Of a stretch of DNA of 20,153 nt, positions 2,238 through 19,129 are shown in pieces. This stretch comes from a virus. A program made the translations under genes and the position numbers. The stretch lies in IMG/VR virus record IMGVR_UViG_3300025781_000102, positions 1 through 20,153 of that record. The stretch is one strand, 5' to 3'. Every line of letters begins with the position of its first letter. Position 1 is the stretch's first letter. The notes beneath the pieces were generated by a model. The model was not told the DNA's origin and did no database searches. It saw only the letters and a list, made by a program, of their open reading frames with translations.

Positions 2238-2250
2238 ACAAACAGTATAA

Positions 2251-2688
2251 CTACAGATTATTAGATTTCAAGAATTGTTCGGTAATATGTTTTGGTGGTG
2301 TACCGATTCTTACATTTATTATACCGTTGTAATAATCATCTCTTAAAAGAACATTCTTATTAATCTGTTCCCTTATTTCAAAATAACCTAATTCCCATTT
2401 TGATCCGCATGCTCGTAAAATTCTGAATAGGAATTTATCTTTACCGTATTTGACAATATCAGCGTTAAGTTCATTGGAGGAGCTTGTATAAGATTTCCAA
2501 TCCGATTCTTTATAATCTATTCTATTCTTTTTTTTACCTTTAAGCGGCTTACGTCTAATCTTCGATATGCATTGTTTTTTGCCAATGTATTTTCTATTAG
2601 TAACGGTGTTTGTAATTTCATAGATAAAACCAAATGTTTGATCATCTATGACAACACCATCGGAAAGTAACCAGTGACCGTAATCCAC
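2251..2688 (-). CDS. GIY-YIG family endonuclease
   Basis: A 145-aa single-domain nuclease. The two family elements are visible: GFIYEIT at residues 20-26 (the GIY strand) and RKYIGKK at 32-38 (the YIG strand), followed by a basic segment at 43-56, an ESDWKSYTSSSNELNADI block (61-78) and a candidate catalytic glutamate, Glu104, in LGYFEIREQ. An Asn-rich turn near 119-125 (YYNGIINV) could supply the late conserved Asn. GIY-YIG enzymes cut DNA with one metal ion; in phages they are homing endonucleases (Seg, I-TevI types) or resident nucleases. No extra DNA-recognition domain of the I-TevI type is present. The start is GTG at 2688, without a Shine-Dalgarno, 12 bp after the upstream stop. It lies inside a probable late operon and is not next to an intron. 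Confidence 0.82.
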   Translation of the reverse strand: MDYGHWLLSDGVVIDDQTFGFIYEITNTVTNRKYIGKKQCISKIRRKPLKGKKKNRIDYKESDWKSYTSSSNELNADIVKYGKDKFLFRILRACGSKWELGYFEIREQINKNVLLRDDYYNGIINVRIGTPPKHITEQFLKSNNL

Positions 2689-2700
2689 AAATATTAATTA

Positions 2701-2973
2701 TTATGAAGGTAAATAAGGTCTACGTGACATCACCGGAAATGTTTTCTTTTTATCCTTTTGCTTGATATTTCGCTTACCATTTTTTGATTTTACTTTTGCA
2801 CCTAAAGCTGCTGTAGCTGGGTCGAATGGTCTTGCATCAAGGCCACCGTATATTTGAGGGCCTTGCATATCAGGGTTACTAGCTGCTGCAGCTGCAGCAG
2901 GACCAAACACCCCTGCAGCAGAGTTAGCATCTTCGTCTAATAATCTATAAAATATTGATTTAAACTTATCCAT
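2701..2973 (-). CDS. Small basic-tailed protein with acidic amphipathic N-terminus, probable virion-associated
   Basis: A 90-aa protein, not recognised. Residues 1-15 form an amphipathic segment with FYRLLDE (8-14), then an Ala-rich low-complexity region (19-33), a Gly/Pro-containing middle, and a strongly basic C-terminal third (about 60-80, Lys/Arg-rich) ending in SRRPYLPS. This composition suits a small packaged or DNA-contacting head protein; the Leu-Asp-Glu at 12-14 matches the L/I-x-E cleavage rule of T4-type prohead proteases. Both points are inference. It is the first gene of the minus-strand cluster, divergent from uvsY with only 35 bp between start codons, and a TATAAAAA octamer lies 4 bases before its ATG. 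Confidence 0.68.
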   Translation of the reverse strand: MDKFKSIFYRLLDEDANSAAGVFGPAAAAAASNPDMQGPQIYGGLDARPFDPATAALGAKVKSKNGKRNIKQKDKKKTFPVMSRRPYLPS

Positions 2974-3000
2974 TGAATTTTTATATTCTTATACTATTAT
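2973..3000 (+). promoter_or_regulatory. Sigma70-like promoter of the uvsY-uvsW-55-47-46 operon
   Basis: TTGAAT (2973-2978), a 16-bp spacer and TATTAT (2995-3000). The -10 box ends 8 bases before the ATG at 3009, so the expected transcription start is about 2 nt from the start codon. The -35 box overlaps the start codon of the divergent minus-strand gene, so use of one promoter could hinder the other. The same arrangement recurs before gp41, uvsX and gp43. Confidence 0.5.
2978..2985 (-). promoter_or_regulatory. Candidate late promoter of the first minus-strand cluster
   Basis: On the minus strand this reads TATAAAAA, one mismatch from the T4 late octamer TATAAATA, ending 4 bases before the ATG at 2973. 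It lies at the divergent head of the cluster, where a promoter is needed. No Shine-Dalgarno lies between it and the start. Confidence 0.4.
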
Positions 3001-3008
3001 TTAAGTTA

Positions 3009-3398
3009 ATGCTTGAAGAATACATAAAGGAACTTGAAGAGGATCTTAAAATTAATGAACTTAATTTAAAGGATTATCAGCTCCGTCTGCCTGCTCTAAA
3101 GCATAAATGGGCCGGTAGACTAATTCGTCATAAGATGGAGATAGCTCGTGAAACAAAATCTTTGGAACAATTAAAGCGTAAATTATTCGATGAGATTCAA
3201 AGACAGGCAGCTGTCAAGCTTACGGCTCCTACTATACAAGGCGCTGTTGATACGAGACAAGAAGTCTTAGCGAAAAAGCAGGAGATTGACGAAAAGAAAT
3301 TAATTGTTGAACTCTTAGAAAAGACAGAAAAAACTTTAAGTAGTACTACTTTTGATATTAAAAACCTTGTCGAGATAATTAAACTCGAAACTATGTAA
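3009..3398 (+). CDS. uvsY: UvsY-like recombination mediator
   Basis: A 129-aa all-helical, charged protein. T4 UvsY (137 aa) helps load UvsX recombinase onto SSB-coated single-stranded DNA. The N-terminal region (LEEYIKELEEDLKIN, then KHKWAGRLIRHKMEI at 31-45 and KSLEQLKRKLF at 50-60) matches, as I remember it, the T4 pattern of a Leu-Glu-rich helix, a Lys-x-Trp element and a Lys/Arg-rich helix. Position supports the call: it is directly upstream of uvsW, as uvsY and uvsW are neighbours in T4. I chose ATG 3009; a TTG at 2973 would add 12 hydrophobic residues, but that stretch carries the promoter. The stop is followed after 1 bp by uvsW. The call rests on weak similarity plus synteny. Confidence 0.66.
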   Translation: MLEEYIKELEEDLKINELNLKDYQLRLPALKHKWAGRLIRHKMEIARETKSLEQLKRKLFDEIQRQAAVKLTAPTIQGAVDTRQEVLAKKQEIDEKKLIVELLEKTEKTLSSTTFDIKNLVEIIKLETM

Positions 3399-3399
3399 T

Positions 3400-4875
3400 A
3401 TGATAGAGTTTGATTACGATACTTCTAAACGCATGGGCATCATCAAGGGCGATGAGCTGCAGGAGATTCGTGAACATTTTTCGGTAAAAAACGAAGGCGC
3501 AAAATTTATGCGCAAGTATGGTAGATTCCTACCGCCGCGTACATATGCAATCACACCAACAGGTAGATTTGAGCCATGTATGGTTGATGAGATACAGAAT
3601 TATATTCGAGCTAATCAGATAACCGGGGGACAAATCTTTAACAGGGAATTATTTGAAGAGGTATCACCCGCGAGACATAGCTGGCATCAACAACTTGATT
3701 TTAAAAATACAATTCAACAACTTAAAATTCCTCTTAGAGACTACCAGGAGGATATTGTAAAGAAGTGTCTCTTTAGAGGTCGCGGTACGGTCATTCTTGC
3801 TACAGCTGGTGGAAAAACCTTAACCTCAGCCTCACTTCTAACACAAATTTATAATATCTACATGTCACCATATAACAAACAAACGTTTAAATGTTTGTTT
3901 ATTGTACCAGACCGCGGTCTTGTTGAGCAGACATCGAGTGATTTTAATGAATATTGTGTACCATTTACAGTGTCAAAATGGACAGGTGATGATGAATTAA
4001 ATCTTAACTCTAACGTTATTGTTGCCAATCTAGGCATATTACAGAGTAAGAATTCAAATTTAGATTGGATACAGGATATAGATGTATTGTTCGTTGACGA
4101 AGTACATAAAATTCGTCGAGGAAATGAAATTAACAAACTATTCAAAAAAGTTAAAACACCTTTCCGTTTTGGCTTAACGGGTACAATGCCAGAAGATCCG
4201 CTTGATCAATGGAATATTTTCGGTAAAATTGGTCCTGTATTATACGAAAAGAATAGTTATGAACTCAGAGAAGGTAAGTTCATTACAGGAGCGCAGATTC
4301 AAATTATTAACTTACAGCATAAAAAAGCTAATACGTTTCTTTCTACAGGCACTGGTGCCACTGATGCCTACAGAGAAGAACTTGACATTTTAATTAAAAG
4401 CGAATTTCGTAATAATACAATTAGTACAATTGCTGGTGGTGTAAAGAACAATTCTCTAGTAATGGTCGATTTTATCGAACACGGTGAAATACTATTTGAC
4501 CTAATAAAGAAACAGCATCCTGATAAACAAGTATTCTTTATTAGAGGAGAGGTGGAGATAGCAGAGCGTGAAGCAGTTAAACAATTAATGGAACATCATG
4601 ATAATGTAATTGTCATTGCAATATCAAAAATATTCTCCACAGGTATTAACATTAAAAATTTACATTACATAATTTTTGCATGCGGTGGTAAAGCAAAGGT
4701 TAAAATAGTGCAGTCCATAGGCCGTGGGCTACGATTGCATAAAGATAAGAACCAGCTTATAATATTTGACATTGCTGATAACTATAAATATAGTGCTGCG
4801 CATCTAGAAAAACGAATTTCACTTTATGAAAAAGAAAAAATCAAATACTTTACTAAAATCGTCAACGAAAAGTAA
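3400..4875 (+). CDS. uvsW: UvsW-type DNA/RNA helicase
   Basis: A 491-aa superfamily 2 helicase, close to the roughly 500 aa of T4 UvsW, which unwinds R-loops and branch-migrates recombination intermediates, shifting replication from origin-dependent to recombination-dependent. Motifs in order: Q-like LRDYQEDIV (112-120), Walker A TAGGKT (135-140), DEVH box (233-236), LTGT motif III (259-262), a second RecA-like domain with STGINIKN (413-420), and motif VI QSIGRGLR (438-445) with both arginines. Residues 1-100 correspond to the small N-terminal DNA-binding domain of UvsW. It starts 1 bp after the uvsY stop, with no Shine-Dalgarno, which suggests coupled translation. Its last 50 bp overlap the start of gene 55. 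All key residues are present, so it should be active. Confidence 0.93.
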   Translation: MIEFDYDTSKRMGIIKGDELQEIREHFSVKNEGAKFMRKYGRFLPPRTYAITPTGRFEPCMVDEIQNYIRANQITGGQIFNRELFEEVSPARHSWHQQLDFKNTIQQLKIPLRDYQEDIVKKCLFRGRGTVILATAGGKTLTSASLLTQIYNIYMSPYNKQTFKCLFIVPDRGLVEQTSSDFNEYCVPFTVSKWTGDDELNLNSNVIVANLGILQSKNSNLDWIQDIDVLFVDEVHKIRRGNEINKLFKKVKTPFRFGLTGTMPEDPLDQWNIFGKIGPVLYEKNSYELREGKFITGAQIQIINLQHKKANTFLSTGTGATDAYREELDILIKSEFRNNTISTIAGGVKNNSLVMVDFIEHGEILFDLIKKQHPDKQVFFIRGEVEIAEREAVKQLMEHHDNVIVIAISKIFSTGINIKNLHYIIFACGGKAKVKIVQSIGRGLRLHKDKNQLIIFDIADNYKYSAAHLEKRISLYEKEKIKYFTKIVNEK

Positions 4876-5446
4876 AAAAGAAAAACTTAAGAAGGATAAG
4901 ACGCAGCCTATTCTCGATATTCCTATTGAAGAGGAAATTGACTTAACTGCAGTTGAAGCTTTAATTGAACAACCGGTAGAAGTTGATGTTACAGCAGCGG
5001 TTGCTGTACCGAAGAAAATTAAACCTCGTGATAGAGAGCATTACGTAAATAGTAGAGAATTTGAAGAAGAAATTCGTGCGTATTATAACACAGGTGCTGT
5101 TAGCTATAAACTCGGTGAAAGTATTAATAAGATTGCTCACGGTCTCTCTTTTGCAGGTAACTTTATTAACTACTCATATAAAGAAGAAATGGTAGGCGAC
5201 GCAATCGTCAAAATGTTTTCAGCATTAAAGAATAAAAAATTTAAACTCGATTCAGGATTTAGCCCTTTTTCATATTTTACAACCATTGCATTTCATGCTT
5301 TTATCAATAGAATTAAGAAAGAAAAGAGACACCACGAAACACTCAACGAGTATAGGGAAAAAGTATACAAGGAAATGATGCTTGATCCTGATGAGAACGG
5401 TGGTGCTCATATCTATATTGATGCAACAGGTGATGACGAATATTAA
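4826..5446 (+). CDS. 55: gp55-like late sigma factor
   Basis: A 206-aa protein whose core (about 75-165) matches T4 gp55, the divergent sigma subunit that directs host RNA polymerase to TATAAATA late promoters. Recognisable parts are YSYKEEMVGDAI (117-128) and SYFTTIAFHAFINRIKKEK (139-157), the sigma region 2-like helices. An extension of about 70 residues, first Lys/Ser-rich and then acidic, precedes the core and is absent from the 185-aa T4 protein. The extension is encoded partly inside uvsW (50-bp overlap); no other ATG or obvious start lies before the core, so ATG 4826 is kept. The C-terminus ends in GDDEY, and I do not see the hydrophobic clamp-binding tail (FLY-type) of T4 gp55. It overlaps gene 47 by 14 bp. 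Confidence 0.85.
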   Translation: MKKKKSNTLLKSSTKSKKEKLKKDKTQPILDIPIEEEIDLTAVEALIEQPVEVDVTAAVAVPKKIKPRDREHYVNSREFEEEIRAYYNTGAVSYKLGESINKIAHGLSFAGNFINYSYKEEMVGDAIVKMFSALKNKKFKLDSGFSPFSYFTTIAFHAFINRIKKEKRHHETLNEYREKVYKEMMLDPDENGGAHIYIDATGDDEY

Positions 5447-6491
5447 TCAAGAACTACATACCAAAGGTCAGAAAGTATGTCTTATTGCAGATCTACATGT
5501 AGGTGTACATCAAAATAGTATCTTTTGGCATGAGACATCCTTGAAGTGGGCTGAATGGCTGAGAGATCAGTTATTAGAAAAAGAGATAACTGACATTTTT
5601 ATTCTCGGCGACGTTTATCATTATCGTGATGAAGTTGCGGTTAATACTATTCACGTTGTCAATCAAATTTTATCTTTATGGAAAGACTTTAATATTGTAA
5701 TATTGGTTGGCAATCATGATGCTTACTATAAAGACAGAGCTGATATTAATTCACTTTCTATTTTGAACGGTAAGAACAATATTACCGTAATCGATCAAAC
5801 ATCGACATTCACTGTATTCGGTAAAACACTTACATTCCTACCATGGGGTGCTAAATTAGCAGATCTTCCTAAATCAGATATTGCTTTCGGTCATTTAGAA
5901 ATTGAGAGCTTTAAGATGAATAGCTTTAAGCTCTGTGAACACGGGACAAAGACATCTGATATATTAAGACAAGCAAAGCTCGTCTTTACCGGTCACTTTC
6001 ATCTTCGTGACGAACGCGAATACGATAACGGCACAATCGTATACGTAGGTAATCCATTTGAAATGGATTTTGGCGATACCGGTACAACGAAAGGTTATTA
6101 TATTTTAGATATACCGACGAGTGAATATTGTTTTTATGAAAATACGATATCACCAAAGCATAAAAAGCTGACACTCACAGACATATCAGAAACAAAGAAC
6201 ATTAAGGACGCTATTGGTAATAATATCGTTAAGATCGTTGTAGATAAAAAAGTAGATACAGATAAGATTGAGAGTCTTATAAAGAAAATGTCGTCTTTGA
6301 ATCCTTTCTCTCTTTCTGTAGATTATTCATTGTATGATGATAATATTAGTGTCGATGATCAGAATTATGAAGCTGGTGGTGTCGACCTTCAAAAGACGAT
6401 TGAAGAATTTATAAACGTTCTCGATATCGACAATAAGGCAGAAGTAATTCAGTACTGCATGGATCTATACAAGAGATCACACACATTATGA
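5433..6491 (+). CDS. 47: gp47-like recombination nuclease subunit (SbcD/Mre11 family)
   Basis: A calcineurin-like metallophosphoesterase of 352 aa (T4 gp47 is 339 aa), the nuclease subunit that pairs with gp46 to resect double-strand ends for recombination-dependent replication. The metal-binding set is complete: DLH (20-22), GDVYH (59-63), GNHD (93-96), FGH (152-154) and GHFH (187-190). I place the start at ATG 5433, where the protein begins MTNINQELHT and soon enters the first strand (KVCLIADLH); an upstream ATG at 5382 would add 17 hydrophobic residues fully inside gene 55 and looks spurious. AGGTG lies immediately before 5433 but is too close to be a normal Shine-Dalgarno. It overlaps gene 55 by 14 bp and gene 46 by 4 bp (ATGA), so the subunits should be made together. 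Confidence 0.92.
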   Translation: MTNINQELHTKGQKVCLIADLHVGVHQNSIFWHETSLKWAEWLRDQLLEKEITDIFILGDVYHYRDEVAVNTIHVVNQILSLWKDFNIVILVGNHDAYYKDRADINSLSILNGKNNITVIDQTSTFTVFGKTLTFLPWGAKLADLPKSDIAFGHLEIESFKMNSFKLCEHGTKTSDILRQAKLVFTGHFHLRDEREYDNGTIVYVGNPFEMDFGDTGTTKGYYILDIPTSEYCFYENTISPKHKKLTLTDISETKNIKDAIGNNIVKIVVDKKVDTDKIESLIKKMSSLNPFSLSVDYSLYDDNISVDDQNYEAGGVDLQKTIEEFINVLDIDNKAEVIQYCMDLYKRSHTL

Positions 6492-8299: not shown

Positions 8300-8313
8300 A
8301 ATAACCAAGTAAC

Positions 8314-9540
8314 ATGATTGTCTCACCCTTTGTCTCTCCGTTTCCGCAGCCCTTCGGTACTCTAGGTCAACCCTCGATATTATCACCTGTACAGACTAAT
8401 ATAGTACCGACACCGCCGGAGATGAATCTCGAACGTGTTGTTAATTATTACGCAGATTATAGTGGTTGTGGTTTCTGGCGAATGATTTGGCCAGAGCACG
8501 TACTTAATGCGCATCAAAAACTCATTGTGCATGGTAGCACAGTCATGAGTTTTGATCCAAATTATTTTAGAGGTGTTAAAGCTGTACGTATTCAAAGACA
8601 AGCAACAGAACATCAATTAAAGTTCGTACAATTCTTAAAAGAGCTTAGTAAGCAATTAGGATTTAGACTTATTTACGAAATTGATGACTTGGTATTTGAG
8701 GAAGATATTCCTGAATATAATAAGTTTAAACCTGCCTTTACTGATCCAACAATTCGTCGATCAGCTCAGGAAATTATGTCTATGTGCGACGAAATTACAG
8801 TTACCTGTAACTTCATGAAGGATTATTATATCAGTAAGACTGGTAACAAGAACGTTACTGTTATTCCAAACTATCCACCGAAATTCTGGATGGGACAGTT
8901 CTTTAACGAGAAGCGTATATCAGAAAATTATGACAAGTATAAGCGCAAGCCGCGTATTCTTTATGCAGGTTCTGGTGCTCACTTCGATGTCGATAATAGA
9001 GTAGGTCAGAACGATGACTTCGCGCATGTCAACCGTGTTATTGAAGCTACAAAGGACAAATACCAATGGGTGTTCCTTGGTGCCTTCCCTCTCCCGCTAC
9101 ATAACCTTGTCCGCGAAGGTAAAGTCGAGTTTCATCCTTGGGAAAGACTCTATACATACCCTGAAAAGATTTATAATCTCAATATTAATGCAATGGTTGC
9201 ACCTCTTCAGGATAATACCTTTAATAAAGCTAAGAGTGATCTAAAGCTCGTTGAAGCAAGTTGCTATGGTATACCCATTGTGTGCCAGGATTTGGTTACC
9301 TACGAGAATGCACCACTTAAGTTCAAGACCGGTGACGAGATGATTGATCAGCTTGACGATGTACTCGACCGTAAGGGCAAATACATGAATCACGTCGGCA
9401 GATTTAGAAAGATCGCAAACGAGCGTTGGCTTGAGACGGATACAAATATTGACAAGTATTTAGAGCTCTATACAACACCATACGGATCGCCTGAACGTAA
9501 GCTGTTGAATCCATTGAATGGAATTACACTTGATAAATAA
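8314..9540 (+). CDS. GT-B glycosyltransferase (GT4-like)
   Basis: A 408-aa protein with the two-domain layout of GT-B glycosyltransferases. A Pro/Ser-rich N-terminal tail (1-38) leads into GCGFWRMIWPE (51-61), the start-of-domain pattern of many phage GT4-like enzymes; YEIDD lies at 121-125. The second domain begins at KPRILYAGSG (202-211) and carries SDLKLVEASCYGIPIV (298-313), the nucleotide-sugar binding element with Glu304. The acceptor could be modified DNA bases, a virion protein or a host glycan. T4 places its alpha-glucosyltransferase next to genes 47 and 46, so the position is suggestive of a DNA role, but the sequence does not prove it. It starts 14 bp after gene 46 with no Shine-Dalgarno, and its stop lies inside the gp43 leader hairpin. 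Confidence 0.82.
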   Translation: MIVSPFVSPFPQPFGTLGQPSILSPVQTNIVPTPPEMNLERVVNYYADYSGCGFWRMIWPEHVLNAHQKLIVHGSTVMSFDPNYFRGVKAVRIQRQATEHQLKFVQFLKELSKQLGFRLIYEIDDLVFEEDIPEYNKFKPAFTDPTIRRSAQEIMSMCDEITVTCNFMKDYYISKTGNKNVTVIPNYPPKFWMGQFFNEKRISENYDKYKRKPRILYAGSGAHFDVDNRVGQNDDFAHVNRVIEATKDKYQWVFLGAFPLPLHNLVREGKVEFHPWERLYTYPEKIYNLNINAMVAPLQDNTFNKAKSDLKLVEASCYGIPIVCQDLVTYENAPLKFKTGDEMIDQLDDVLDRKGKYMNHVGRFRKIANERWLETDTNIDKYLELYTTPYGSPERKLLNPLNGITLDK

Positions 9541-9558
9541 TAGCCGGTAAGCTATTAT
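9530..9558 (+). promoter_or_regulatory. Sigma70-like promoter of gene 43
   Basis: TTGATA (9530-9535), a 17-bp spacer and TATTAT (9553-9558), ending 6 bases before the ATG at 9565. The expected start point falls on the A of the ATG, which would give a leaderless polymerase message. The -35 box overlaps the end of the glycosyltransferase gene and the -10 box lies in the 3' arm of the hairpin 9536-9559. Confidence 0.5.
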
Positions 9559-9559
9559 T
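9536..9559 (+). promoter_or_regulatory. Perfect hairpin immediately upstream of gene 43, possible translational operator
   Basis: AATAATAGC (9536-9544), loop CGGTAA, then GCTATTATT (9551-9559): nine uninterrupted base pairs. The stem ends 5 bases before the ATG of DNA polymerase and contains the stop codon of the preceding gene. T4 gp43 represses its own translation by binding a hairpin at this place; stem and loop sequence differ here. There is no U-run, so it is not a typical terminator. Confidence 0.6.
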
Positions 9560-9564
9560 ACAGC

Positions 9565-12180
9565 ATGTATAGAAATGCTGCATATTTACCCAGAGAGCAA
9601 GCAATGCGTCTTTATTGCTGGGATGAAAACGGCAAGCGTATTCATGTTGATGTTTCATATGAGCCATACATATATCTTGAAACAACACATAATGAAGATT
9701 GTTTAAGTATCTTTAATACCAAATTAAAGAAGAGACGTTTTAAGAATCAAGCTGAGCGTTCGCAATTTCTCAAGGATAACAACATTACCAGGGTATTTGA
9801 AAACCTCGGGGTACAGCAACAATTTTTAATTGATTATTACAGCAATCAAAATGAAACTCCGGATTTTGCTAAGAATCCGTTAAGAACGCTCTTTATCGAT
9901 ATTGAGACATATAGTCCTGATAGCTTTCCAGATATTGAGACGGCTAATCATGCTATTAATGTTATTACGGTTTATGATACGCTAGCTGAGAAATTCATAA
10001 CCTGGGGCTCAAAGCCTGTAAAAAATCTCGAACAAGATGTTACATATGTATACTGTAAGACGGAACACGATCTATTAGAGAAGTTCCTAGACTATTTTTC
10101 ACGTGATTACCCGGATATTCTTTCTGGATGGAATAGTGAGTTTTTCGATATCCCGTATATCGTAAACAGAATTACAAGAATATTAGGCGAAGATGAAGCA
10201 AAGAGGCTTTCCCCTATTAATAGAATACGGTCGAGAAAGTTTATGGGTAAGTTTGGTAGAGAGCAAACTAGGTGGCATTTAGAAGGACTCTCTTGTGTTG
10301 ACTATTATCAAATCTACCGTAGATTTTGTCCAGTGTTGCGTGAGATGTATAAGTTAGGCTATATTGGTGAAATAGAGCTAGGTGAAACGAAGGTTGACTA
10401 TGGTGATACTGATCTTGCATCGCTATCGGATGACAATTGGGATCTCTTTGTAAAATATAATATTCAGGACGTTAATCTGCTTGTAAGACTTGAACAGAAG
10501 CTACAATACATACAGCTATTGCGTATGATTGCTTACGCAGGTCTTACAACATTTGAGGGTGCACTAGGCTCCTTGAGTGTTATCACCGGTCTATGTGCTA
10601 TTCGAGCTCGTCACAGAAATCAGCGCATTCCAACATTCAATAAGCATATTGAAGATAGTGACATAAGAAAACAAAATGAAGGCGCTTACGTCGGTGAACC
10701 ACAGCAAGGTTTTCAGGATCACATTGTATCGTTTGATGCTAATAGTCTATATCCAAACGTGATGATTACGTTAAATCTCTCTCCGGAGACAAAAATTGGT
10801 ACGATCGTTCACGATGACAAATATAAAATCGTTTATACTGATGATGGTAAGCTTACAATCAGACACGTTAATGGGTCGGAATATACTCTGACAAAGGAAA
10901 AGTTTGCTGCGTTTGTAAAGCAAGAGCAAATTGCGATATCGAAAGCCTGTGTTCTTTTCTCACAAAAAACAAAAGGCATTGTCCCTGAAACAGTAGATCA
11001 TTATTATAAGAAGCGTGTTGAGATCAAGAAGCAATTAGACAAGGCAAAGAGAGCGATTTTAAATATTGAGAAAGGTACTAAGGAGTACACTACATTAAAA
11101 GATGAAATAGATCATTTAAACATCACGCAACATACTATTAAGATTCTGATTAATACTGTTTATGGCTATTTCGGTAATAAGCATAGCCCACTCGGTGATG
11201 ATGATCTTGCTAATTCAATTACCCTTACCGGTCAAGCTACTATCAAACAATCAAACCAATTGCTCGTCGATTACATTAAGCAAAAGACGGGCATGTCAGA
11301 AGAAGAGCTCACAACTGATAGTCCAATCATTTATAATGATACAGACAGCTCTTATATATCGATTAGACATTTAGTAAAGAAAAATAACATTCCTGTACCT
11401 GTAAAAGGTAAGATACCAAAAGAATACTACGATGTGGTAAAAGACATTGAGCAATACCTTAATACGAACATTAAGGAGTGGGGGAAGAAGTCACTCGGAT
11501 CAGAAGATTGCAGACTTCTCTTTAAGAGAGAAAAGATTGCTGATGCCGGTCTCTTTATTAGAAAGAAGAGATACGTTCTTCATATTCTCGATGATGAGGG
11601 TATTCCCTGTAACAAATTTAAGTATACAGGTGTTGAAGTGGTACGCACAACAATGGCGGCCGCAATTAAAACAAGCGTTAAAAAGATTATTGAGACGATG
11701 CTCTTAACAAAATCAAAAGCGGATACAGATAAAGTGTTTAACGAAACTTACGAGTTGTTCACTAAGCTAACAGCAGAAGAGATCTCATCACCATCGAGCA
11801 TTAAAAACTACGAGAAATACGCTGCAGGTTGCAAAGAATTTAAAACTGTTAAATCGATGCCAAAGCACGTTAAGGCCGCCTATTTCTATAATTTATTAAT
11901 TGATAAACTTAACCTTAGCCGCAAATACGAGAAAATATCTTCTGGTGATAATATGAAATATTTTCCTGTGAGAAAGCCGAATAAGTATGGTCTCTCTACA
12001 ATCGGCTTTAAGTATGACTACCCGAAAGAGTTTGATGATATTTTTACTCCTGACCATGAAGCTGTTTTCGAGAAGGATGTATACTCTGTCATTCAGCGAT
12101 TTTATGAATGCGTAAGATGGCAGTTAAAAAAGCCGAGCGAACAAGTTCAGACAGATTTATTTGATTTACTAGGTATATAA
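9565..12180 (+). CDS. 43: T4-type family B DNA polymerase gp43
   Basis: An 871-aa replicative polymerase (T4 gp43 is 898 aa) with complete proofreading and polymerase sites. Exonuclease: Exo I FIDIET (110-115, Asp112 and Glu114), Exo II GWNSEFFD (188-195, Asp195) and Exo III YNIQD (298-302, Asp302). Polymerase: motif A DANSLYPN (391-398), motif B KILINTVYG (526-534) and motif C YNDTDS (590-595, Asp592 and Asp594). The frame is continuous with no intein, intron or split, unlike some related phages. The N-terminus is short, with nothing in front of MYRNAAY. The C-terminus VQTDLFDLLGI carries a QTDLFDLL element, which fits a sliding-clamp binding (PIP-like) peptide; the clamp itself is not in this window. 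No Shine-Dalgarno precedes the start; a promoter and hairpin lie there instead. Confidence 0.96.
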   Translation: MYRNAAYLPREQAMRLYCWDENGKRIHVDVSYEPYIYLETTHNEDCLSIFNTKLKKRRFKNQAERSQFLKDNNITRVFENLGVQQQFLIDYYSNQNETPDFAKNPLRTLFIDIETYSPDSFPDIETANHAINVITVYDTLAEKFITWGSKPVKNLEQDVTYVYCKTEHDLLEKFLDYFSRDYPDILSGWNSEFFDIPYIVNRITRILGEDEAKRLSPINRIRSRKFMGKFGREQTRWHLEGLSCVDYYQIYRRFCPVLREMYKLGYIGEIELGETKVDYGDTDLASLSDDNWDLFVKYNIQDVNLLVRLEQKLQYIQLLRMIAYAGLTTFEGALGSLSVITGLCAIRARHRNQRIPTFNKHIEDSDIRKQNEGAYVGEPQQGFQDHIVSFDANSLYPNVMITLNLSPETKIGTIVHDDKYKIVYTDDGKLTIRHVNGSEYTLTKEKFAAFVKQEQIAISKACVLFSQKTKGIVPETVDHYYKKRVEIKKQLDKAKRAILNIEKGTKEYTTLKDEIDHLNITQHTIKILINTVYGYFGNKHSPLGDDDLANSITLTGQATIKQSNQLLVDYIKQKTGMSEEELTTDSPIIYNDTDSSYISIRHLVKKNNIPVPVKGKIPKEYYDVVKDIEQYLNTNIKEWGKKSLGSEDCRLLFKREKIADAGLFIRKKRYVLHILDDEGIPCNKFKYTGVEVVRTTMAAAIKTSVKKIIETMLLTKSKADTDKVFNETYELFTKLTAEEISSPSSIKNYEKYAAGCKEFKTVKSMPKHVKAAYFYNLLIDKLNLSRKYEKISSGDNMKYFPVRKPNKYGLSTIGFKYDYPKEFDDIFTPDHEAVFEKDVYSVIQRFYECVRWQLKKPSEQVQTDLFDLLGI

Positions 12181-12181
12181 G

Positions 12182-12209
12182 TTGATTTATTAACAAAAGT
12201 CTATAATAT
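12182..12209 (+). promoter_or_regulatory. Probable promoter of the small Sm-like gene
   Basis: TTGATT (12182-12187) is followed by TATAAT (12202-12207) after 14 bp, or by TAATAT (12204-12209) after the more usual 16 bp. The start codon at 12220 is 10 to 12 bases beyond, again a very short leader without Shine-Dalgarno. The spacing ambiguity lowers confidence. Confidence 0.42.
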
Positions 12210-12219
12210 ATTAAACAAT

Positions 12220-12594
12220 ATGAGCGATACAAAAAACATCATTACATTCGTAGATCACATTGGTCGTACACTTCTTGCAGAGTTTGTTGAGAAGGTTGAC
12301 AATGATACTGCATTTACTGTTCGTAACCCAGCAATTATCCACGTTCAGCCAACTCAGCAGGGTCAGCTCAACGTTCAGACCATTCCTCTCTATTTTAGAG
12401 ATTTCGTCAGTGAGAAGAACAAGCAGGAAGGTACTCTCTGGAAGTTCTTTTATTCTTCCGTTGTTCTCGGTCTTAATATCGAGAATGATCAGCGTCTTGT
12501 TGATCAGTATAACAAGCTTTTCAGCGACGCACCGCTTATCCAACCTGCAAGCGGACCTGATAGCGGTAAGACAATCAAGTTGTTTGACGAGTAG
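12220..12594 (+). CDS. Small conserved protein, possibly Sm-like (LSm) fold
   Basis: A 124-aa protein between the polymerase and uvsX. Its first 45 residues (NIITFVDHIGRTLLAEF, then VDNDTAFTVRNPAIIHVQP) have the rhythm of an Sm1 motif: a beta strand, a Gly-Arg turn, another strand and a D-x-x-F/L-x-V strand. I recall a short protein of this kind next to uvsX or gp43 in other marine T4-like phages, but its function is unknown to me. An RNA-binding role would be consistent with an Sm-like fold but is inference. The C-terminal part (FYSSVVLGLNIENDQRLVDQ) looks helical. It has its own promoter-like sequence and is closed by a strong terminator, so it appears to be a one-gene transcription unit. 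Codon use is rich in GTT, CTT and CAG, perhaps a sign of high expression. Confidence 0.7.
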   Translation: MSDTKNIITFVDHIGRTLLAEFVEKVDNDTAFTVRNPAIIHVQPTQQGQLNVQTIPLYFRDFVSEKNKQEGTLWKFFYSSVVLGLNIENDQRLVDQYNKLFSDAPLIQPASGPDSGKTIKLFDE

Positions 12595-12623
12595 AATTAA
12601 TAAAAAAACATCTGCGTTTTTTG

Positions 12624-12651
12624 AAAGCGGCTTCGGCCGCTTTTTTTTTTT
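12624..12651 (+). terminator. Intrinsic terminator with UUCG tetraloop
   Basis: AAAGCGGC (12624-12631), loop TTCG, then GCCGCTTT (12636-12643), followed by an unbroken T-run to 12651. The 8-bp GC-rich stem, the extra-stable UUCG loop and the T-run make this the clearest terminator in the window. It ends the Sm-like transcript just before the uvsX promoter. Confidence 0.92.
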
Positions 12652-12652
12652 G

Positions 12653-12680
12653 TTGATAATATGTATGTAGGTATTATAAT
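12653..12680 (+). promoter_or_regulatory. Sigma70-like promoter of uvsX-queC
   Basis: TTGATA (12653-12658), a 16-bp spacer and TATAAT (12675-12680). The -10 box ends 6 bases before the ATG at 12687, so transcription should start on the first base of the start codon and the mRNA would be leaderless. It follows a strong terminator directly, so a promoter is needed here. Confidence 0.65.
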
Positions 12681-12686
12681 TGTGGT

Positions 12687-13829
12687 ATGAGTAAAGAGAT
12701 TGATTCTATTTTTAAGAAACTTGACGCTATGAATAGCGAAGCAACAATGCTTGATGAAAATGCATTGTCAAATGTTGATACCTGGTATGATACCGGCTGT
12801 TACGCTCTTAACGCAATTTTAGGGGGTAGCTGTCGTAAGGGTGGTATACCTAAGGGTAGAATCGTAGGATTCTCAGGTGAGTCGATGACAGGTAAGACTT
12901 TTATTATAAATAAGATTTTAGCTAACGCGCAGAAGCAAGGTATCTATCCAGTCATTTTTGATACTGAGTTTGCAATCGACGAGAGCTCTACCAAAGGTGT
13001 AGGTCTTGATGCGAGTAAGACAAAGTATGTACCGGTTTATACGGTCGATCAATGTCGTAATCAACTATCGGCTTTTCTCGATAGCGTCATTGAGAGTAAG
13101 CAACAAGGTAAGTTTATCGTAAGTATTGACAGTCTCGGGAACCTATCATCACAGAAGGAGATTGATGATATCGCTAAGGATAAAGCCGCTATGGATATGG
13201 GTCTCCGTGCCAAGTCACTTAAGTCAATGCTTCGTACCTTGACATACAAGGCTGGTAAGGCAGGCGTTACTATTCTGTTTACCAATCATACATATTCCGA
13301 TCCCGGCGCTATGTTCCCATCTCTCGTAAAAACACAGTCTGGTGGATCAGGCCCTGTGTATATGGCCAGTATTCTCGTGCAGCTTGCTAAGCGTAATGAG
13401 AAGGAAGGTGAGGGCGATTCAGGTGCATTGAAGACGGATAAGCTTGCAGAAGCTAACAAATACTCAGGAGTCACACTGCGTGCACTAACCGTGAAGAATC
13501 GCTTTGTTCCACCATTCTTAGAGGCAGAAATGTACCTTTCCTTTAAGTCCGGTCTTAACAAGTATAGCGGGCTGTTGCAGATGGCTACTGCAAGAGGTAT
13601 TATTGAGCAGACGGGATCGACATATGTTGTTGGTGTTGACTGTGGTAAGTATAAAAAGGGTGATAAACTCGGTTATGCGAAGAATTTCGTTAAGGATGTA
13701 TCGTTCTTCGAAGACTTTATTATCCCGGAACTTGATAAGAAGCTTGCTGAAGATTACAAGTACAACAGTAACGAGGTGCAGAATAGCACAGATGATGAGC
13801 AAGCCGAAGAATTAGCAGAAAATGAGTGA
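12687..13829 (+). CDS. uvsX: UvsX recombinase (RecA/Rad51 family)
   Basis: A 380-aa recombinase (T4 UvsX is about 391 aa) that forms filaments on single-stranded DNA and carries out strand exchange for recombination-dependent replication and repair. Walker A is GESMTGKT (64-71), the catalytic Glu region is FDTEFA (91-96), Walker B is FIVSIDSLGNL (143-153, Asp148), and a loop 2-like DNA-binding region, SLVKTQSGGSGPVY, follows near 211-225. The C-terminus is strongly acidic (STDDEQAEELAENE), as in T4 UvsX, where the tail modulates DNA binding. The start is ATG 12687 with no Shine-Dalgarno and a promoter ending 6 bases upstream. The gene overlaps queC by 8 bp. Its partner mediator is probably the uvsY-like gene at 3009. 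Confidence 0.95.
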   Translation: MSKEIDSIFKKLDAMNSEATMLDENALSNVDTWYDTGCYALNAILGGSCRKGGIPKGRIVGFSGESMTGKTFIINKILANAQKQGIYPVIFDTEFAIDESSTKGVGLDASKTKYVPVYTVDQCRNQLSAFLDSVIESKQQGKFIVSIDSLGNLSSQKEIDDIAKDKAAMDMGLRAKSLKSMLRTLTYKAGKAGVTILFTNHTYSDPGAMFPSLVKTQSGGSGPVYMASILVQLAKRNEKEGEGDSGALKTDKLAEANKYSGVTLRALTVKNRFVPPFLEAEMYLSFKSGLNKYSGLLQMATARGIIEQTGSTYVVGVDCGKYKKGDKLGYAKNFVKDVSFFEDFIIPELDKKLAEDYKYNSNEVQNSTDDEQAEELAENE

Positions 13830-14544
13830 GAATCGTGTAATTGTACCATTTTCCGGTGGGATGGACTCAACAGTCCTTCTCCATTATGCAGCCGCTAAGT
13901 ACGATCGTGTCTATGCGATTACGTTTGACTACGGTCAGAGACACATAAAAGAGCTTGAATACGCAGATTGGCAAATTAACTCAATTCGTGAGAGTGAAGA
14001 TGATAAAAACGTGTATTTCAGTAACATCGTCAAGCTACCGTTCTTTAAGGACATTACGACATCATCCCTACTTAACAAGCAGATTAATGTAGCTAAGGCG
14101 CGCGACGTCATGGGCGATCCACAAACGGTAAATTACGTTCCTTTCCGTAATTTGATGCTTTTATCTATAGCTTGCTCGTATGCTGAGGGATTTGATGCAA
14201 CAACAGTCCTACATGGAGCTGCACAAGCAGATAGTGTTGCAGGCTTCTGGGATGGTAGTATAGAGTTCTTATCTAAGATTAACGAAATAACTGCATTAAA
14301 CCGTAGAAACCGCATAACTGTTGAAGCTCCTCTTATAGATAAGTCAAAGGGAGAGATTATTAAAATGGGACTTGAACTCGGTGTAGACTTTAGTCGTACC
14401 TGGACTTGCTACGAGGGTAAGGATCTTGCCTGCGGCGAATGCACAGCATGCGCTCTACGGTTAAAAGGGTTTATTGACGTTGGTATCCGTGACCCACTGT
14501 CTTACTCCAGAGACATTCCTTGGGAGCAATATATTAAAGAGTAA
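13822..14544 (+). CDS. queC: QueC-like 7-cyano-7-deazaguanine (preQ0) synthase
   Basis: A 240-aa PP-loop ATPase of the QueC family, which converts 7-carboxy-7-deazaguanine to preQ0 with ATP and ammonia. Visible features: SGGMDST (11-17, PP-loop), TFDYGQRH (34-41), NYVPFRN (104-110), and the zinc site Cys196, Cys204, Cys207, Cys210 (CGEC and TAC). In E. coli QueC the region after the central strand reads SGYPDCRDEF; here the aligned segment is AGFWDGSIEF (140-149), so the Cys and Arg are replaced by Gly and Ser. That could alter substrate or activity. In phages this pathway feeds 7-deazaguanine bases into DNA as protection from restriction, or boosts host tRNA queuosine; the other pathway genes are not in the window. 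It is translationally coupled to uvsX (8-bp overlap) and its 3' end lies in a convergent hairpin. Confidence 0.88.
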   Translation: MSENRVIVPFSGGMDSTVLLHYAAAKYDRVYAITFDYGQRHIKELEYADWQINSIRESEDDKNVYFSNIVKLPFFKDITTSSLLNKQINVAKARDVMGDPQTVNYVPFRNLMLLSIACSYAEGFDATTVLHGAAQADSVAGFWDGSIEFLSKINEITALNRRNRITVEAPLIDKSKGEIIKMGLELGVDFSRTWTCYEGKDLACGECTACALRLKGFIDVGIRDPLSYSRDIPWEQYIKE

Positions 14545-14556
14545 AGTACTCTTTAA
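14534..14556. terminator. Symmetric hairpin over two convergent stop codons, probable bidirectional terminator
   Basis: TTAAAGAGTA (14534-14543), loop AAG, TACTCTTTAA (14547-14556): a perfect 10-bp inverted repeat. It contains the queC stop (14542-14544) and the stop of the minus-strand gene (14534-14536), whose coding ends overlap by 11 bp. A long U-run is absent, so termination strength is uncertain. Confidence 0.55.
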
Positions 14557-15436: not shown

Positions 15437-15441
15437 AAAAA

Positions 15442-16341
15442 TTACCCAAACATGCTATCACCATGACCGCTCCAAATATCACGCGCAGTTTTTGGCGCGG
15501 CACCTAAACCGGTATGATGTTGAATTAAATCTTCGTCAGAAAGAACAGTTGAGTCGTTACCACCTGCTTCGAATTTATCGAAATTCTTACCTAGTTTTAC
15601 ATATTCGCCCTTTTTCTCAAAAACCTGCTTGTTAATAAGGTCCTTTAGAATGACCTCGACTTTTCTCTTATCTTCACCTTCATTTAACCCTAATCCACCG
15701 CTATCACGAATCTCCTGTACAACATCATTAACTACATATTTTGCTAATACACCACTATCGTCGATAGCATTAGCCAACATCTGCTCTATTCTTACTGTGA
15801 GCTTATCACCGCTTACCGGTGTAGTAGCTGGCTGTGTGTCACCGGATGGTGCTGCTTGTGCTACTTCTTCTGATTTATCTGTAGCATCAGATACTGCATC
15901 AGCAATATCGTCTGCGGCAGCTTGAATTGTTTCGCCGTCTTCAACGTTACTTTCTACTTCATCAACTACAGCTGCAATAAAACTCTTAAGAATTCTTGCT
16001 GTATACTGAGATTTCGCCTTTGGGTTACTAGCAGCAAGCTTTTCCATAATATCGCGCTCAAGCTTTACTAAATCCTTTTCAACACCTCTGCCCTCATAAG
16101 TGCCATTAGGAAATAAATCATTAATAATAGGAACAACAAGCTCGTTTATACGTTTATCTAAAGCTTCACCTGTAAGTCCTTTAAAAAGGTATGTATCGTT
16201 ATTTTTACCTCTTTCCTCAAGACCGTGTTTAATAGCAGTAACTAAGGATTGTACAGGATCACCTTCACCCTTAACACGGAGTGCCATTTCATCTAAACGG
16301 GTTTTATAGGCTTCAAAAATTAAACGAGAATCACGATTCAT
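15442..16341 (-). CDS. Acidic hypothetical protein, 299 aa, probable virion or assembly protein
   Basis: I do not recognise a family. The start region RLIFEAYKTRLDEM (6-19) is amphipathic and contains L-D-E (16-18), matching the L/I-x-E rule of T4-type prohead proteases. Residues 25-130 look globular and helical. Residues 131-178 are acidic, Ala/Asp/Glu-rich and then Ser/Thr/Pro-rich, a probable linker. Residues 179-260 look like a small winged-helix or helical domain (KVEVILKDLINKQVFEKKGEYVKLGKN with a helix-strand-strand rhythm). The tail ends GHGDSMFG. No membrane segments or catalytic motifs are visible. It heads a two-gene minus-strand unit divergent from the amidotransferase gene; an AATAAATA octamer lies 10 bases upstream. 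Confidence 0.68.
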   Translation of the reverse strand: MNRDSRLIFEAYKTRLDEMALRVKGEGDPVQSLVTAIKHGLEERGKNNDTYLFKGLTGEALDKRINELVVPIINDLFPNGTYEGRGVEKDLVKLERDIMEKLAASNPKAKSQYTARILKSFIAAVVDEVESNVEDGETIQAAADDIADAVSDATDKSEEVAQAAPSGDTQPATTPVSGDKLTVRIEQMLANAIDDSGVLAKYVVNDVVQEIRDSGGLGLNEGEDKRKVEVILKDLINKQVFEKKGEYVKLGKNFDKFEAGGNDSTVLSDEDLIQHHTGLGAAPKTARDIWSGHGDSMFG

Positions 16342-16345
16342 ATGC

Positions 16346-16385
16346 TTGAAATATTTATTCTTTGATGTTAATATATATGCAAGGA
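16346..16385 (+). promoter_or_regulatory. Possible promoter and Shine-Dalgarno of the amidotransferase gene
   Basis: TTGAAA (16346-16351), a 17-bp spacer and TAATAT (16369-16374) could form a promoter with a start near 16381. AAGGA (16381-16385) then lies 10 bases before the ATG at 16396 and is one of the few believable ribosome-binding sites in the window. The promoter overlaps the divergent late octamer. Confidence 0.38.
16352..16359 (-). promoter_or_regulatory. Candidate T4-type late promoter of the second minus-strand cluster
   Basis: On the minus strand this reads AATAAATA, one mismatch from TATAAATA, ending 10 bases before the ATG at 16341. It lies in the 54-bp divergent gap at the head of the cluster. 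There is no Shine-Dalgarno between it and the start. Confidence 0.42.
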
Positions 16386-16395
16386 ATAAACTATA

Positions 16396-17091
16396 ATGTG
16401 TGCAATTTTTGGATCCACTGACTTCAATACTTACAGAAAACTATATAATGAATGTAAAAAGCGCGGTGATTTCGCGTATGGTAGTCTTTATGTAGGAAAA
16501 CCGAATAAATGTAAGAATCTTGTAATATCTAGAGCATCTGGTTCTGTAACTCTTAGCAAGAATGACAAATATCAGGACGAAGATCAAGAATATGGAATTG
16601 AAGATTTCAAGATGTTTCTCGGCCATACACAAGCCCCGACAAGTAGCGTAAGAGAGTTCAGTGCCTCAACATCGCATCCATTTGCTTGTGGCGACTGGAT
16701 TGTTGCTCATAACGGTGTGCTTTCAAATTTCGAACTACTTAAAAAATATGTTGCCGATCCAACAACATATAATGATGTTGACACCTCCATTATACCTGCA
16801 ATGATACATCAGAAGTCACTTGTTATGGACAATGAAGTTGATATACTCGGTGAAGTACTATCAAAATTAAAGGGTACATTCGGTCTTTGGATATTCTGTA
16901 AGGCTACAGGGAATACATATCTCGCACGGTCAGGAAGCACGCTTTATGGAAATTATCTAACAAACGACTTTTCGTCACTTCCACAGACAGATTACAAACC
17001 GCTTGATGAAGGTACAATTTACCTACTAACATCCGAGGGCATTACTTCTGTTGGTTTCTTCTCACCTAACTCACCGTTTTTAGCTCTATGA
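16396..17091 (+). CDS. Stand-alone class II glutamine amidotransferase
   Basis: A 231-aa Ntn-hydrolase domain without an attached synthetase. The catalytic Cys2 follows the initiator Met (MCAIFG). Family motifs are RGDFAYGS (23-30), GHTQAPTSS (76-84), HPFACGDW (94-101) and AHNGVLSN (104-111), as in the glutaminase domains of GlmS, PurF and AsnB. Such domains release ammonia from glutamine for a partner enzyme; a free-standing one needs a separate acceptor protein. Candidates nearby are the GT-A glycosyltransferase, which it overlaps by 4 bp (ATGA), and the ammonia-using QueC about 1.9 kb upstream. Archaeal and phage Gat-QueC proteins fuse exactly these two domains. Which partner applies is not shown by the sequence. 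Confidence 0.85.
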   Translation: MCAIFGSTDFNTYRKLYNECKKRGDFAYGSLYVGKPNKCKNLVISRASGSVTLSKNDKYQDEDQEYGIEDFKMFLGHTQAPTSSVREFSASTSHPFACGDWIVAHNGVLSNFELLKKYVADPTTYNDVDTSIIPAMIHQKSLVMDNEVDILGEVLSKLKGTFGLWIFCKATGNTYLARSGSTLYGNYLTNDFSSLPQTDYKPLDEGTIYLLTSEGITSVGFFSPNSPFLAL

Positions 17092-17771
17092 GCAAAATAG
17101 CATTTTTCTCCTGCAGCAAGGGATCGACTGCAACCATTCTCAAAAATAGCATTGATACAATAAATGAGTTCGTAAAGACACCTATTGATATTATTTGTTA
17201 TAATAACAACAAAGAAGGTCTATCAAAACGATATAATGAGTTTCTCTATTCAGATCAGGCCGATAGTTATGATTATATTTGCTTTGTACATGACGATGTC
17301 ATGTTTGATGATGCTTTAATTGAAGCAAAGCTTAACAAATATCATGAGCAATATGATATCATCGGTGTTGCAGGTGGTAATAATGCAAAGATTCAGCAAC
17401 CCGCTCTCTGGCACTTGATGTGCGGGGGGTTTGGAAGCGGTAATTTGCACGGAGCAGTAGCGCATTTAACACAAGATGGTAAATCGTCTACAACACCGTT
17501 CGGGCCATCACCAACGCGTGTTGCCATTGTAGATGGTGTTTTTATATCCGTAAATGTCAAAAAAGTTAAACAAGTTGGCTGGAAGTTTAACGAGAATTAT
17601 AATTTCCATCTCTATGATATCTCAAGCTGCCTTGATGCTAATAAATTAAAATTAAAAATTGGTGTTGCTCCCATACATTTAATTCATAGCTCACCGGGAC
17701 TCAGAAGTCTTGAGGACAAGACGTTTAAGGAGAATCAAACAAAATTCTTATTAGAGTATGGTAGTTATTGA
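17088..17771 (+). CDS. GT-A fold glycosyltransferase (GT2-like)
   Basis: A 227-aa single-domain protein with a GT-A pattern: an N-terminal Rossmann strand (KIAFFSCSKGS, 3-13), YICFVHDDVMF (63-73) supplying the Asp-x-Asp-type metal and nucleotide-sugar site, VDGVFISVNV (148-157) as the acceptor-side strand, and FHLYDISSCL (173-182) with Asp177 as a possible catalytic base. The VHDDV signature is typical of small GT2-type transferases in phage and bacterial glycan loci. It has no membrane segment, so it should act in the cytoplasm. The start is fused to the amidotransferase stop (ATGA) without Shine-Dalgarno, which implies coupled synthesis and perhaps a shared pathway such as amino-sugar transfer. 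The acceptor (DNA base, virion protein or host polysaccharide) is unknown. Confidence 0.75.
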   Translation: MSKIAFFSCSKGSTATILKNSIDTINEFVKTPIDIICYNNNKEGLSKRYNEFLYSDQADSYDYICFVHDDVMFDDALIEAKLNKYHEQYDIIGVAGGNNAKIQQPALWHLMCGGFGSGNLHGAVAHLTQDGKSSTTPFGPSPTRVAIVDGVFISVNVKKVKQVGWKFNENYNFHLYDISSCLDANKLKLKIGVAPIHLIHSSPGLRSLEDKTFKENQTKFLLEYGSY

Positions 17772-17795
17772 TTATTGCGGTATTGATAGTATTAT
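17768..17795 (+). promoter_or_regulatory. Sigma70-like promoter of gene 41
   Basis: TTGATT (17768-17773), a 16-bp spacer and TATTAT (17790-17795), ending 8 bases before the ATG at 17804, so only about 2 nt of leader are expected. TATTGAT occurs twice here (17766-17772 and 17781-17787, 15 bp apart), possibly a regulator site. The -35 box overlaps the stop codon of the glycosyltransferase gene. Confidence 0.52.
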
Positions 17796-17803
17796 CGTAA
17801 CAT

Positions 17804-19129
17804 ATGTCTAAGCTTGATCTAGATTTCTTTGAAAAGATAATCGTCTACAAATCATTAACAGATGAAGCTTATTTAGCCTCGGTTATTGATTACGTACAGC
17901 CTGTGTTCTTCAAGAACAAAGACATTAAGTCTGTCTTTACAATAATAAAAGAATTCTTTATCTCACGAGGAACTGTACCTACAGCTACAGAGGTTAAGGC
18001 ATATCTTACTACAGATGAATTAAAGTCATCCTTTACTAATGTGGCTCTATCCTTTAAGGATATTGATACTAAATTTAATAAAGACGAACTCTTCTCCAAC
18101 ACTGAGACTTTCTTAAAAGAGAAAGCTGTTTACCACACGATGATGAATGTTGTCGATGAGATAAACAAGAACGACGTTAATACATCCAAGATCTTAGATC
18201 AATTTGAAAAGGCATGTAATATTTCTCTAACTACAGAAACAGGATTAGATTTGTTCAATGATATTGATAAATTAGTGGCAAGTATTAATGAAGATACAAA
18301 TAGAATATCAACCGGATGGGAGTGGTTTAATGAGAAACTCGGAGGTGGGTTTCTCGAGCAAGGTCGAGCATTATATGTATTTGCCGGTGAAACAAATATC
18401 GGTAAGAGTATATTCTTAGGTAATATTGCCACAAATATAGCAAATTTAGGTAAGAGTGTTCTCTTAATTTCTCTTGAAATGCCTGAGACGATTTACGCGC
18501 AACGTCTTTGCTCAAGTGTTACGAGAATTCCTCTCGGTAAATTAAAACTTGAAGTACACACTGTACAACAGCAGTTAGAAGAGTATGCTTCTACTAATCC
18601 CGGTGCGCGTATCTTAATTAAAGAATTTCCTCCATCCACTATTACACCTTTATTCCTAAAGTCATTTATTAAGAAGCTTAAAAATGCAGGAATAAGTTTT
18701 GACGCTATTGTTGTCGATTATGTTAATCTTTTAAATTCACCTATCGGTACAAATAGCTATGAGCGAATTAAACATGCAACAGAACAACTCCGTGCTCTTT
18801 CGTATGAATTTAATTGTCCTATAATTACAGCTACACAGCTTAATAGATCGGGATATTCAGTTGCAGATCCTGGTATGGAGACTGTTTCAGAGTCATCTGG
18901 TCTTGGTATGACTGCAGACGTTATGATGAGCATCTGGCAAGAGGATCAAGATAGAGAATTAGGTGTAATACGCATGGGTGTAATGAAGAACCGGTTTGGA
19001 CCTGCATTCGGTAACTGCTTGATGAGAATTGACTACTCGACTCTGACAATTTTTGAAGATGAGCATATAAACGATACAGAAGCTAGCTCTTCGTCAGCAA
19101 ATGTATTAGCTGCTCTTTCTAACGGTTGA
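17804..19129 (+). CDS. 41: gp41-like replicative DNA helicase (DnaB family)
   Basis: A 441-aa hexameric helicase (T4 gp41 is 475 aa) that moves 5' to 3' on the lagging strand with its primase partner. The N-terminal helical domain (1-140) leads to the RecA-like motor: TGWEWFNEKLGGGF (170-183, the DnaB-type entry), Walker A GETNIGKS (195-202), LISLEMPE (221-228), Walker B IVVDYVNLL (302-310, Asp305), TATQLNRSGY near 338-347 (DNA-binding loop region) and KNRFGPAFG near 396-404 (arginine finger region). The C-terminal Ser/Ala-rich tail is short. A promoter lies 8 bases upstream and no Shine-Dalgarno is seen. The 44-bp gap to the next gene holds a hairpin. Its loader and primase are not clearly identified in the window; the 222-aa protein at 19464 is a loader candidate. 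Confidence 0.95.
   Translation: MSKLDLDFFEKIIVYKSLTDEAYLASVIDYVQPVFFKNKDIKSVFTIIKEFFISRGTVPTATEVKAYLTTDELKSSFTNVALSFKDIDTKFNKDELFSNTETFLKEKAVYHTMMNVVDEINKNDVNTSKILDQFEKACNISLTTETGLDLFNDIDKLVASINEDTNRISTGWEWFNEKLGGGFLEQGRALYVFAGETNIGKSIFLGNIATNIANLGKSVLLISLEMPETIYAQRLCSSVTRIPLGKLKLEVHTVQQQLEEYASTNPGARILIKEFPPSTITPLFLKSFIKKLKNAGISFDAIVVDYVNLLNSPIGTNSYERIKHATEQLRALSYEFNCPIITATQLNRSGYSVADPGMETVSESSGLGMTADVMMSIWQEDQDRELGVIRMGVMKNRFGPAFGNCLMRIDYSTLTIFEDEHINDTEASSSSANVLAALSNG

Follow-up and report, generated by a model that had tools for sequence, protein, structure and literature searches.

How do phages of the T4 superfamily start translation of their replication genes when the promoters appear to lie directly against the start codons? 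The question is raised by an environmental viral fragment, IMG/VR record IMGVR_UViG_3300025781_000102, the entire 20,153 bases of which constitute the window analyzed here (GC content, 36%). T4 provides the textbook example of translation being controlled at mRNA leaders and ribosome-binding sites, through RegA, RegB, and the gp43 and gp32 operators. A preliminary description of the window had claimed that uvsY, gp43, uvsX, and gp41 each begin with the same promoter element and lack a Shine-Dalgarno sequence, with looser versions at the gene starting at 12220 and at the window end, and had inferred a leaderless strategy for key replication proteins, contrasting with T4.

Source of the fragment

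The window derives from a T4-superfamily phage. Its plus strand carries, in order, uvsY, uvsW, a gp55-like late sigma factor, gp47, gp46, gp43, uvsX, queC, and gp41, and T4-superfamily homologues were identified for gp43, UvsX, UvsY, gp41, and gp55, together with UvsW-like and gp46/47-like domains. The gp43 polymerase is only ∼30% identical to those of the named phages that come closest, among them Pelagibacter phage HTVC008M, and the phage therefore belongs to an uncultured branch; the clade as a whole is large, consists of uncultured T4-like phages, and occurs in lakes and seas. The gp55 family was found in all 18 records searched, including 14/14 clade records, and the window copy is as follows.

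4826..5446, plus strand, gp55-like late sigma factor (phrog_234, E=1.2e-24)

Promoter elements adjoining start codons in the window

The early-type promoter elements and an associated terminator are listed below; spacer lengths stand between the −35 and −10 boxes.

2244..2271, minus strand (2271-2244), further early promoter: TTGAAA-16-TATACT, 6 nt to the GTG at 2237
2973..3000, plus strand, uvsY early promoter: TTGAAT-16-TATTAT, 8 nt to the ATG at 3009; exact match (site including ATG, 2973-3011)
9530..9558, plus strand, gp43 early promoter: TTGATA-17-TATTAT, 6 nt to the ATG at 9565; exact match (9530-9567)
12182..12212, plus strand, early promoter of the 12220 gene, looser: TTGATT at 12182-12187, with TAATAT or TATATT as the −10 box, 10 or 7 nt to the ATG
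12623..12651, plus strand, intrinsic terminator directly before the uvsX promoter
12653..12680, plus strand, uvsX early promoter: TTGATA-16-TATAAT, 6 nt to the ATG at 12687; exact match (12653-12689)
17768..17795, plus strand, gp41 early promoter: TTGATT-16-TATTAT, 8 nt to the ATG at 17804; exact match (17768-17806)
19429..19457, plus strand, further early promoter, within the end of the preceding gene: TTGAAT-17-TATACT, 6 nt to the ATG at 19464

The pattern TTGANN-(16/17)-TATWAT-(6-8)-ATG occurs four times on the two strands of the window, compared with 0.06 ± 0.24 expected from 300 dinucleotide shuffles, none of which reached four sites. The window holds five strict promoter pairs, of which all but the one at 2117-2145 adjoin a start codon, and no Shine-Dalgarno sequence is present upstream of the window copies of uvsY, gp43, uvsX, or gp41. 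At the uvsY locus, the −35 box adjoins the start codon of a divergent gene at 2973, such that the divergent start codons at 2973 and 3009 are only 35 bp apart.

The four elements are thus exactly as previously described, and both the looser element at the 12220 gene and the lack of Shine-Dalgarno sequences at the four units are upheld; the looser version reported at the window end could not be judged, as the element is cut off. Two sites of the same layout, the TATACT promoters at 2271-2244 and 19429-19457, had been missed.

We also note a perfect 9-bp inverted repeat, AATAATAGC-CGGTAA-GCTATTATT, at 9537-9560 between the −35 box and the gp43 start and overlapping the −10 box. We considered it as a translational operator hairpin comparable to the T4 gp43 operator and rejected this, as the remaining gp43 upstream regions compared do not show the repeat.

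Conservation in homologues

Upstream regions of homologues were taken from other IMG/VR contigs and aligned on the start codon, with non-redundant counts, and a promoter was scored when it ended 4 to 10 nt before the start. Adjacent promoters are present in 48/51 gp43 homologues (1.7 expected), 56/61 uvsX homologues (2.7 expected), 35/40 homologues of the 12220 gene (1.6 expected), 23/42 gp41 homologues (1.1 expected), and 13/20 uvsY homologues (expectations across these five genes range from 0.8 to 2.7). The two additional sites behave similarly, with 8/10 homologues of the gene at 19464 (0.1 expected) and 5/8 of the minus-strand gene at 2237 (0.2 expected) carrying the element. The TTGA, the −10 box, and the short gap are preserved while the spacers and flanks diverge, and Shine-Dalgarno 4-mers are found in only 3 of the 214 upstream regions of gp43, uvsX, the 12220 gene, gp41, and uvsY.

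An intrinsic terminator lies upstream of uvsX in 28/73 homologues (0.4 expected), with the stem ending 34 to 57 nt from the start codon, which leaves space for a promoter but not much for a leader. In the fetched loci, leading genes keep the early layout and remain without Shine-Dalgarno sequences down to 35 to 45% gp43 identity, and contigs whose UvsX is ∼31% identical use Shine-Dalgarno sequences (19/46 leading genes, 4.0 expected). These distant Shine-Dalgarno-using relatives (L070-L080) nevertheless have some TAAATA boxes beside their starts (15 versus about 0.8 expected), and it is conceivable that they represent an intermediate state.

Genome-wide distribution in related contigs

Ten related contigs of 119 to 222 kb were taken nearly whole, with genes called by coding potential only. 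Among 993 unit-leading genes, 226 have a −35/−10 pair with the −10 box ending 4 to 10 nt before the start, compared with 10.2 expected, and no other upstream distance bin exceeds about 2.5 times the expected number. The gap between the −10 box and the start peaks at 6 nt (101 of the 226 cases), and the usual +1 therefore falls on the A of the ATG; gaps of 8 to 10 nt account for 62/226. For TANNNT, the most frequent start is at −12, above shuffled sequence, which fulfills the criterion for TA-led genes (PMC3160421). The control phages T4, HTVC008M, P-HM2, and Melnitz, run with the same script, have 2 pairs versus 1.2 expected at 4 to 10 nt and an excess at 11 to 40 nt. The carriers of early-type elements are replication and metabolism genes, including helicases, primase, QueE, and GTP cyclohydrolase in the closest relative. 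In one run of early genes (G006:C1:2147-6689), most have an individual TTGAC/TTGAA-TATAAT promoter that ends 6 nt upstream of the ATG.

Shine-Dalgarno sequences are at about the shuffled level in most clade sets, for leading and follower genes alike, with a mild excess in the leading genes of G003 and the followers of G006 and G007; among the controls, T4, HTVC008M, and Melnitz show strong enrichment and P-HM2 weak enrichment. Strong sites are nonetheless kept by 45/2011 called genes, some near perfect (e.g., AAAGGAGGTGA), and the host ribosome can therefore probably use them. The near-perfect AAAGGAGGTGAAAT occurs at G001:C1:32721, G002:C1:137866, and G003:C1:73968, in genomes otherwise without such sites, possibly in a single gene family. 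Of 801 followers without a box, the overlap with the neighbor is 4 nt in 191 and 1 nt in 83, and a further 79 begin 1 nt beyond the neighbor; operon-internal genes are thus probably translated by coupling, although coupling is inferred from these overlaps and contacts.

The genome-wide scan against shuffled sequence that the preliminary description had proposed is therefore favorable, with pairs ∼20-fold above shuffles at 4 to 10 nt before starts and no more than ∼2.5-fold elsewhere upstream. The contrast with T4 also holds, as the same script was run on T4 and the other controls. The observation is larger than originally stated: the near-absence of Shine-Dalgarno sequences extends almost genome-wide beyond the four units, and the suggested leaderless strategy is not confined to key replication proteins, in that early metabolism genes and, with a different box, late structural genes are also involved. 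The leaderless interpretation is supported and likely, with the transcript 5′ ends remaining inferred.

A late box at the same position

Leading genes without an early promoter have a hexamer peak at −11/−12, TAAATA, which forms the core of T4 late promoters. It is present at −14 to −9 in 17 to 33 leading genes per contig, versus 1.1 to 3.4 expected (ten contigs; weakest in G007), and tail sheath and tail fiber genes are among those that carry it in the closest relative; in the T4 late region the same box is at −33/−34. Two instances are in the window.

1675..1680, minus strand, late box TAAATA, −12 before the ATG at 1668; present in 9/9 homologues, 0.1 expected
16352..16357, minus strand, late box TAAATA, −16 before the ATG at 16341; box itself strongly conserved

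With TAAATA upstream of structural genes and a gp55 sigma factor, the criteria for T4-type late promoters are met, although sigma binding is inferred. One adjacent box, early or late, is present in 484 of 994 leading genes, and neither occurs in strict form in 510. Both promoter classes probably give leaderless transcripts, the 5′ ends again being inferred.

A start codon switch in the amidotransferase gene

One gene in the window has homologues that alternate between the two modes.

16396..17091, plus strand, glutamine amidotransferase gene; homologues alternate, pairing ATG with an adjacent promoter and ATT with a leader that contains GGAGG

The start is fixed at the codon preceding the catalytic cysteine (M-C-[AGS]-[IV]-[FYV]), the cysteine at position 2 having a catalytic role in this family. 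Among 54 homologues (e.g., L152, L037, L007, and L155), 37 start with ATG and 17 with ATT. In all 17 ATT copies a GGAG lies at Shine-Dalgarno distance and an adjacent promoter is lacking; in the 37 ATG copies, GGAG occurs once and an adjacent promoter 26 times. Recognizable −10 boxes are mostly 18 to 33 nt upstream in ATT genes and mostly 4 to 9 nt upstream in ATG genes. The amidotransferase tree requires at least seven ATG/ATT switches, and in seven independent pairs GGAG tracks ATT in six and opposes it in none (sign test, p = 0.031). Leaderless initiation is expected to need a 5′-end AUG or GUG, and the linked switch of start codon and leader is therefore as the leaderless model predicts, providing a natural experiment on the needs of leaderless versus leadered initiation.

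The window copy starts with ATG, is preceded by a weak AAGGA, and lacks an adjacent promoter, an in-between state. AUU starts are known from infC as IF3 sensitive; here an AUU start is conserved among phages, and no excess of ATT starts with GGAGG was seen in other genes.

A leaderless model and its alternatives

The position of the elements, their conservation and statistics, the terminator placement, and the near-absence of Shine-Dalgarno sequences are shown. Leaderless expression as the default mode across the clade is likely, with 5′ ends, sigma use, leaderless initiation, and coupling all inferred. In this model, the host main sigma factor would read the early elements, TTGA-(16-18)-TATAAT promoters adjoining the start codon, as real promoters, with transcription beginning at the start codon or no more than a few nucleotides from it, and the phage gp55-like sigma would read the T4-type TAAATA box adjoining the start codons of late genes. 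The mRNAs would be leaderless or have leaders of about 0 to 4 nt, and ribosomes would start at the 5′-terminal AUG or GUG rather than by Shine-Dalgarno pairing. Operon-internal genes, lacking Shine-Dalgarno sequences and mostly overlapping or touching the preceding gene, would be translated by coupling. We note, however, that transcript 5′ ends are unmapped, that gene starts are from coding potential with the host unknown, and that about half of the leading genes have neither box in strict form; as strong Shine-Dalgarno sequences are kept by 45/2011 genes, leadered initiation is not excluded for the rest.

An alternative is that the boxes are promoters but the mRNAs have short leaders of 5 to 15 nt, with initiation dependent on S1 or on A/U content rather than on Shine-Dalgarno pairing. 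The gaps of 8 to 10 nt (62/226), including those of 8 nt at the window uvsY and gp41, and the T/A-rich bases before many starts are consistent with this, but it does not predict the sharp 6-nt peak (101 cases) at the canonical −10 to +1 distance, nor that two different promoter classes each place +1 at the start codon, and we regard it as unlikely. It is less plausible still that the start codons are miscalled and that real leaders precede downstream starts. The clade starts are without experimental support, but the gp43 N terminus is conserved from residue 1 (M1, R3, Y7, and Q12 are invariant in ten sequences), the amidotransferase start is fixed by its required Cys at position 2, and coding potential agrees with the listed starts, with no Shine-Dalgarno pattern at downstream ones.

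Finally, the elements could be chance matches in AT-rich DNA and not promoters at all, given that sigma70-like matches are common in a window of this composition (94 versus 71.7 expected). This is all but excluded, as shuffles give 0.06 for the window pattern and 10 versus 226 in the ten contigs, equally AT-rich controls show nothing, and the elements are conserved across diverged spacers.

Relation to known systems

Leaderless expression is already known, but its use throughout a T4-superfamily clade, for early and late genes together, seems to be new; we found no report of leaderless mRNAs in T4-like phages in the literature searched, which omits most subscription journals. In the large Thermus myovirus phiYS40, most middle and late mRNAs are without leaders (review PMC3594737). 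The two share a large phage with leaderless mRNAs, inferred for the clade, but phiYS40 is of another phage lineage, its host phylum is itself rich in leaderless genes, and middle and late genes are involved rather than, as inferred here, early and late ones. A shift in host IF2/IF3 levels on infection is reported for phiYS40, and there are no infection data for the clade.

A box of the form TANNNT lying about 12 nt upstream of the start codon is accepted as marking a gene as leaderless (PMC3160421, Zheng et al. 2011). The clade shares this box, and the lack of Shine-Dalgarno sequences, with TA-led genes of Actinobacteria and Deinococcus-Thermus (PMC3160421, PMC12340547), but those are a fraction of host genes, whereas here a viral genome has Shine-Dalgarno sequences at about chance, the −35 box is good, and late promoters form a second class at the same place. 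As inferred for the clade mRNAs, the lambda cI mRNA is expected to begin at AUG and to be bound by 70S ribosomes (PMC9031893); that is a single gene, in contrast to the systematic design in the clade. T4, HTVC008M, P-HM2, and Melnitz share with the clade the replication/recombination gene set, a gp55-type late sigma, and a TAAATA-type late box, but they encode RegA and use Shine-Dalgarno leaders, and the T4 late boxes are near −33. The clade thus meets the gene-set criterion for the T4 superfamily but not that of T4-style Shine-Dalgarno sequences and RegA. A widespread uncultured T4-superfamily branch almost without leaders or ribosome-binding sites would indicate that the initiation mode is replaceable across a whole phage genome, and the layout gives a sequence-only rule predicting transcription starts to the base.

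Phage-encoded translation functions and host

RegA is absent from all 14 clade records and found in 4/4 controls; its loss was rejected as a marker co-varying with leaderlessness, as seven distant contigs that use Shine-Dalgarno sequences, most of them short, likewise yielded no RegA. Ribosomal protein S21, located near the anti-Shine-Dalgarno of 16S rRNA, is encoded by 9/20 relatives' records (including G001:C1:15868-16029, G002:C1:167052-167213, and G006:C1:84906-85037), and other phages also encode it (PMC9723584). No phage-encoded IF3 was found in the 20 records. A bolder and more speculative reading is that the clade has dropped default Shine-Dalgarno initiation for early and late genes and may tune host ribosomes toward 5′-AUG, perhaps through S21, while a few genes keep Shine-Dalgarno leaders and one of these genes would repeatedly take an AUU start codon that reports on leader-dependent, IF3-sensitive initiation.

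The actinobacterial mark WhiB, tried as a pointer to the host, was found in 0/20 records, and a search for the host through contigs in bacterial assemblies gave only distant relatives (24 to 30% identity). Compared with solved S21 chains, the phage S21 has weak similarity to many bacterial S21s, with Flavobacterium lower down, and is not host diagnostic. QueC is encoded in the window (13822-14544), and QueE and GTP cyclohydrolase in the closest relative (L190:2150-2914 and L191:8153-9082); together these belong to the preQ0 pathway, which could serve to place 7-deazaguanine in the phage DNA.
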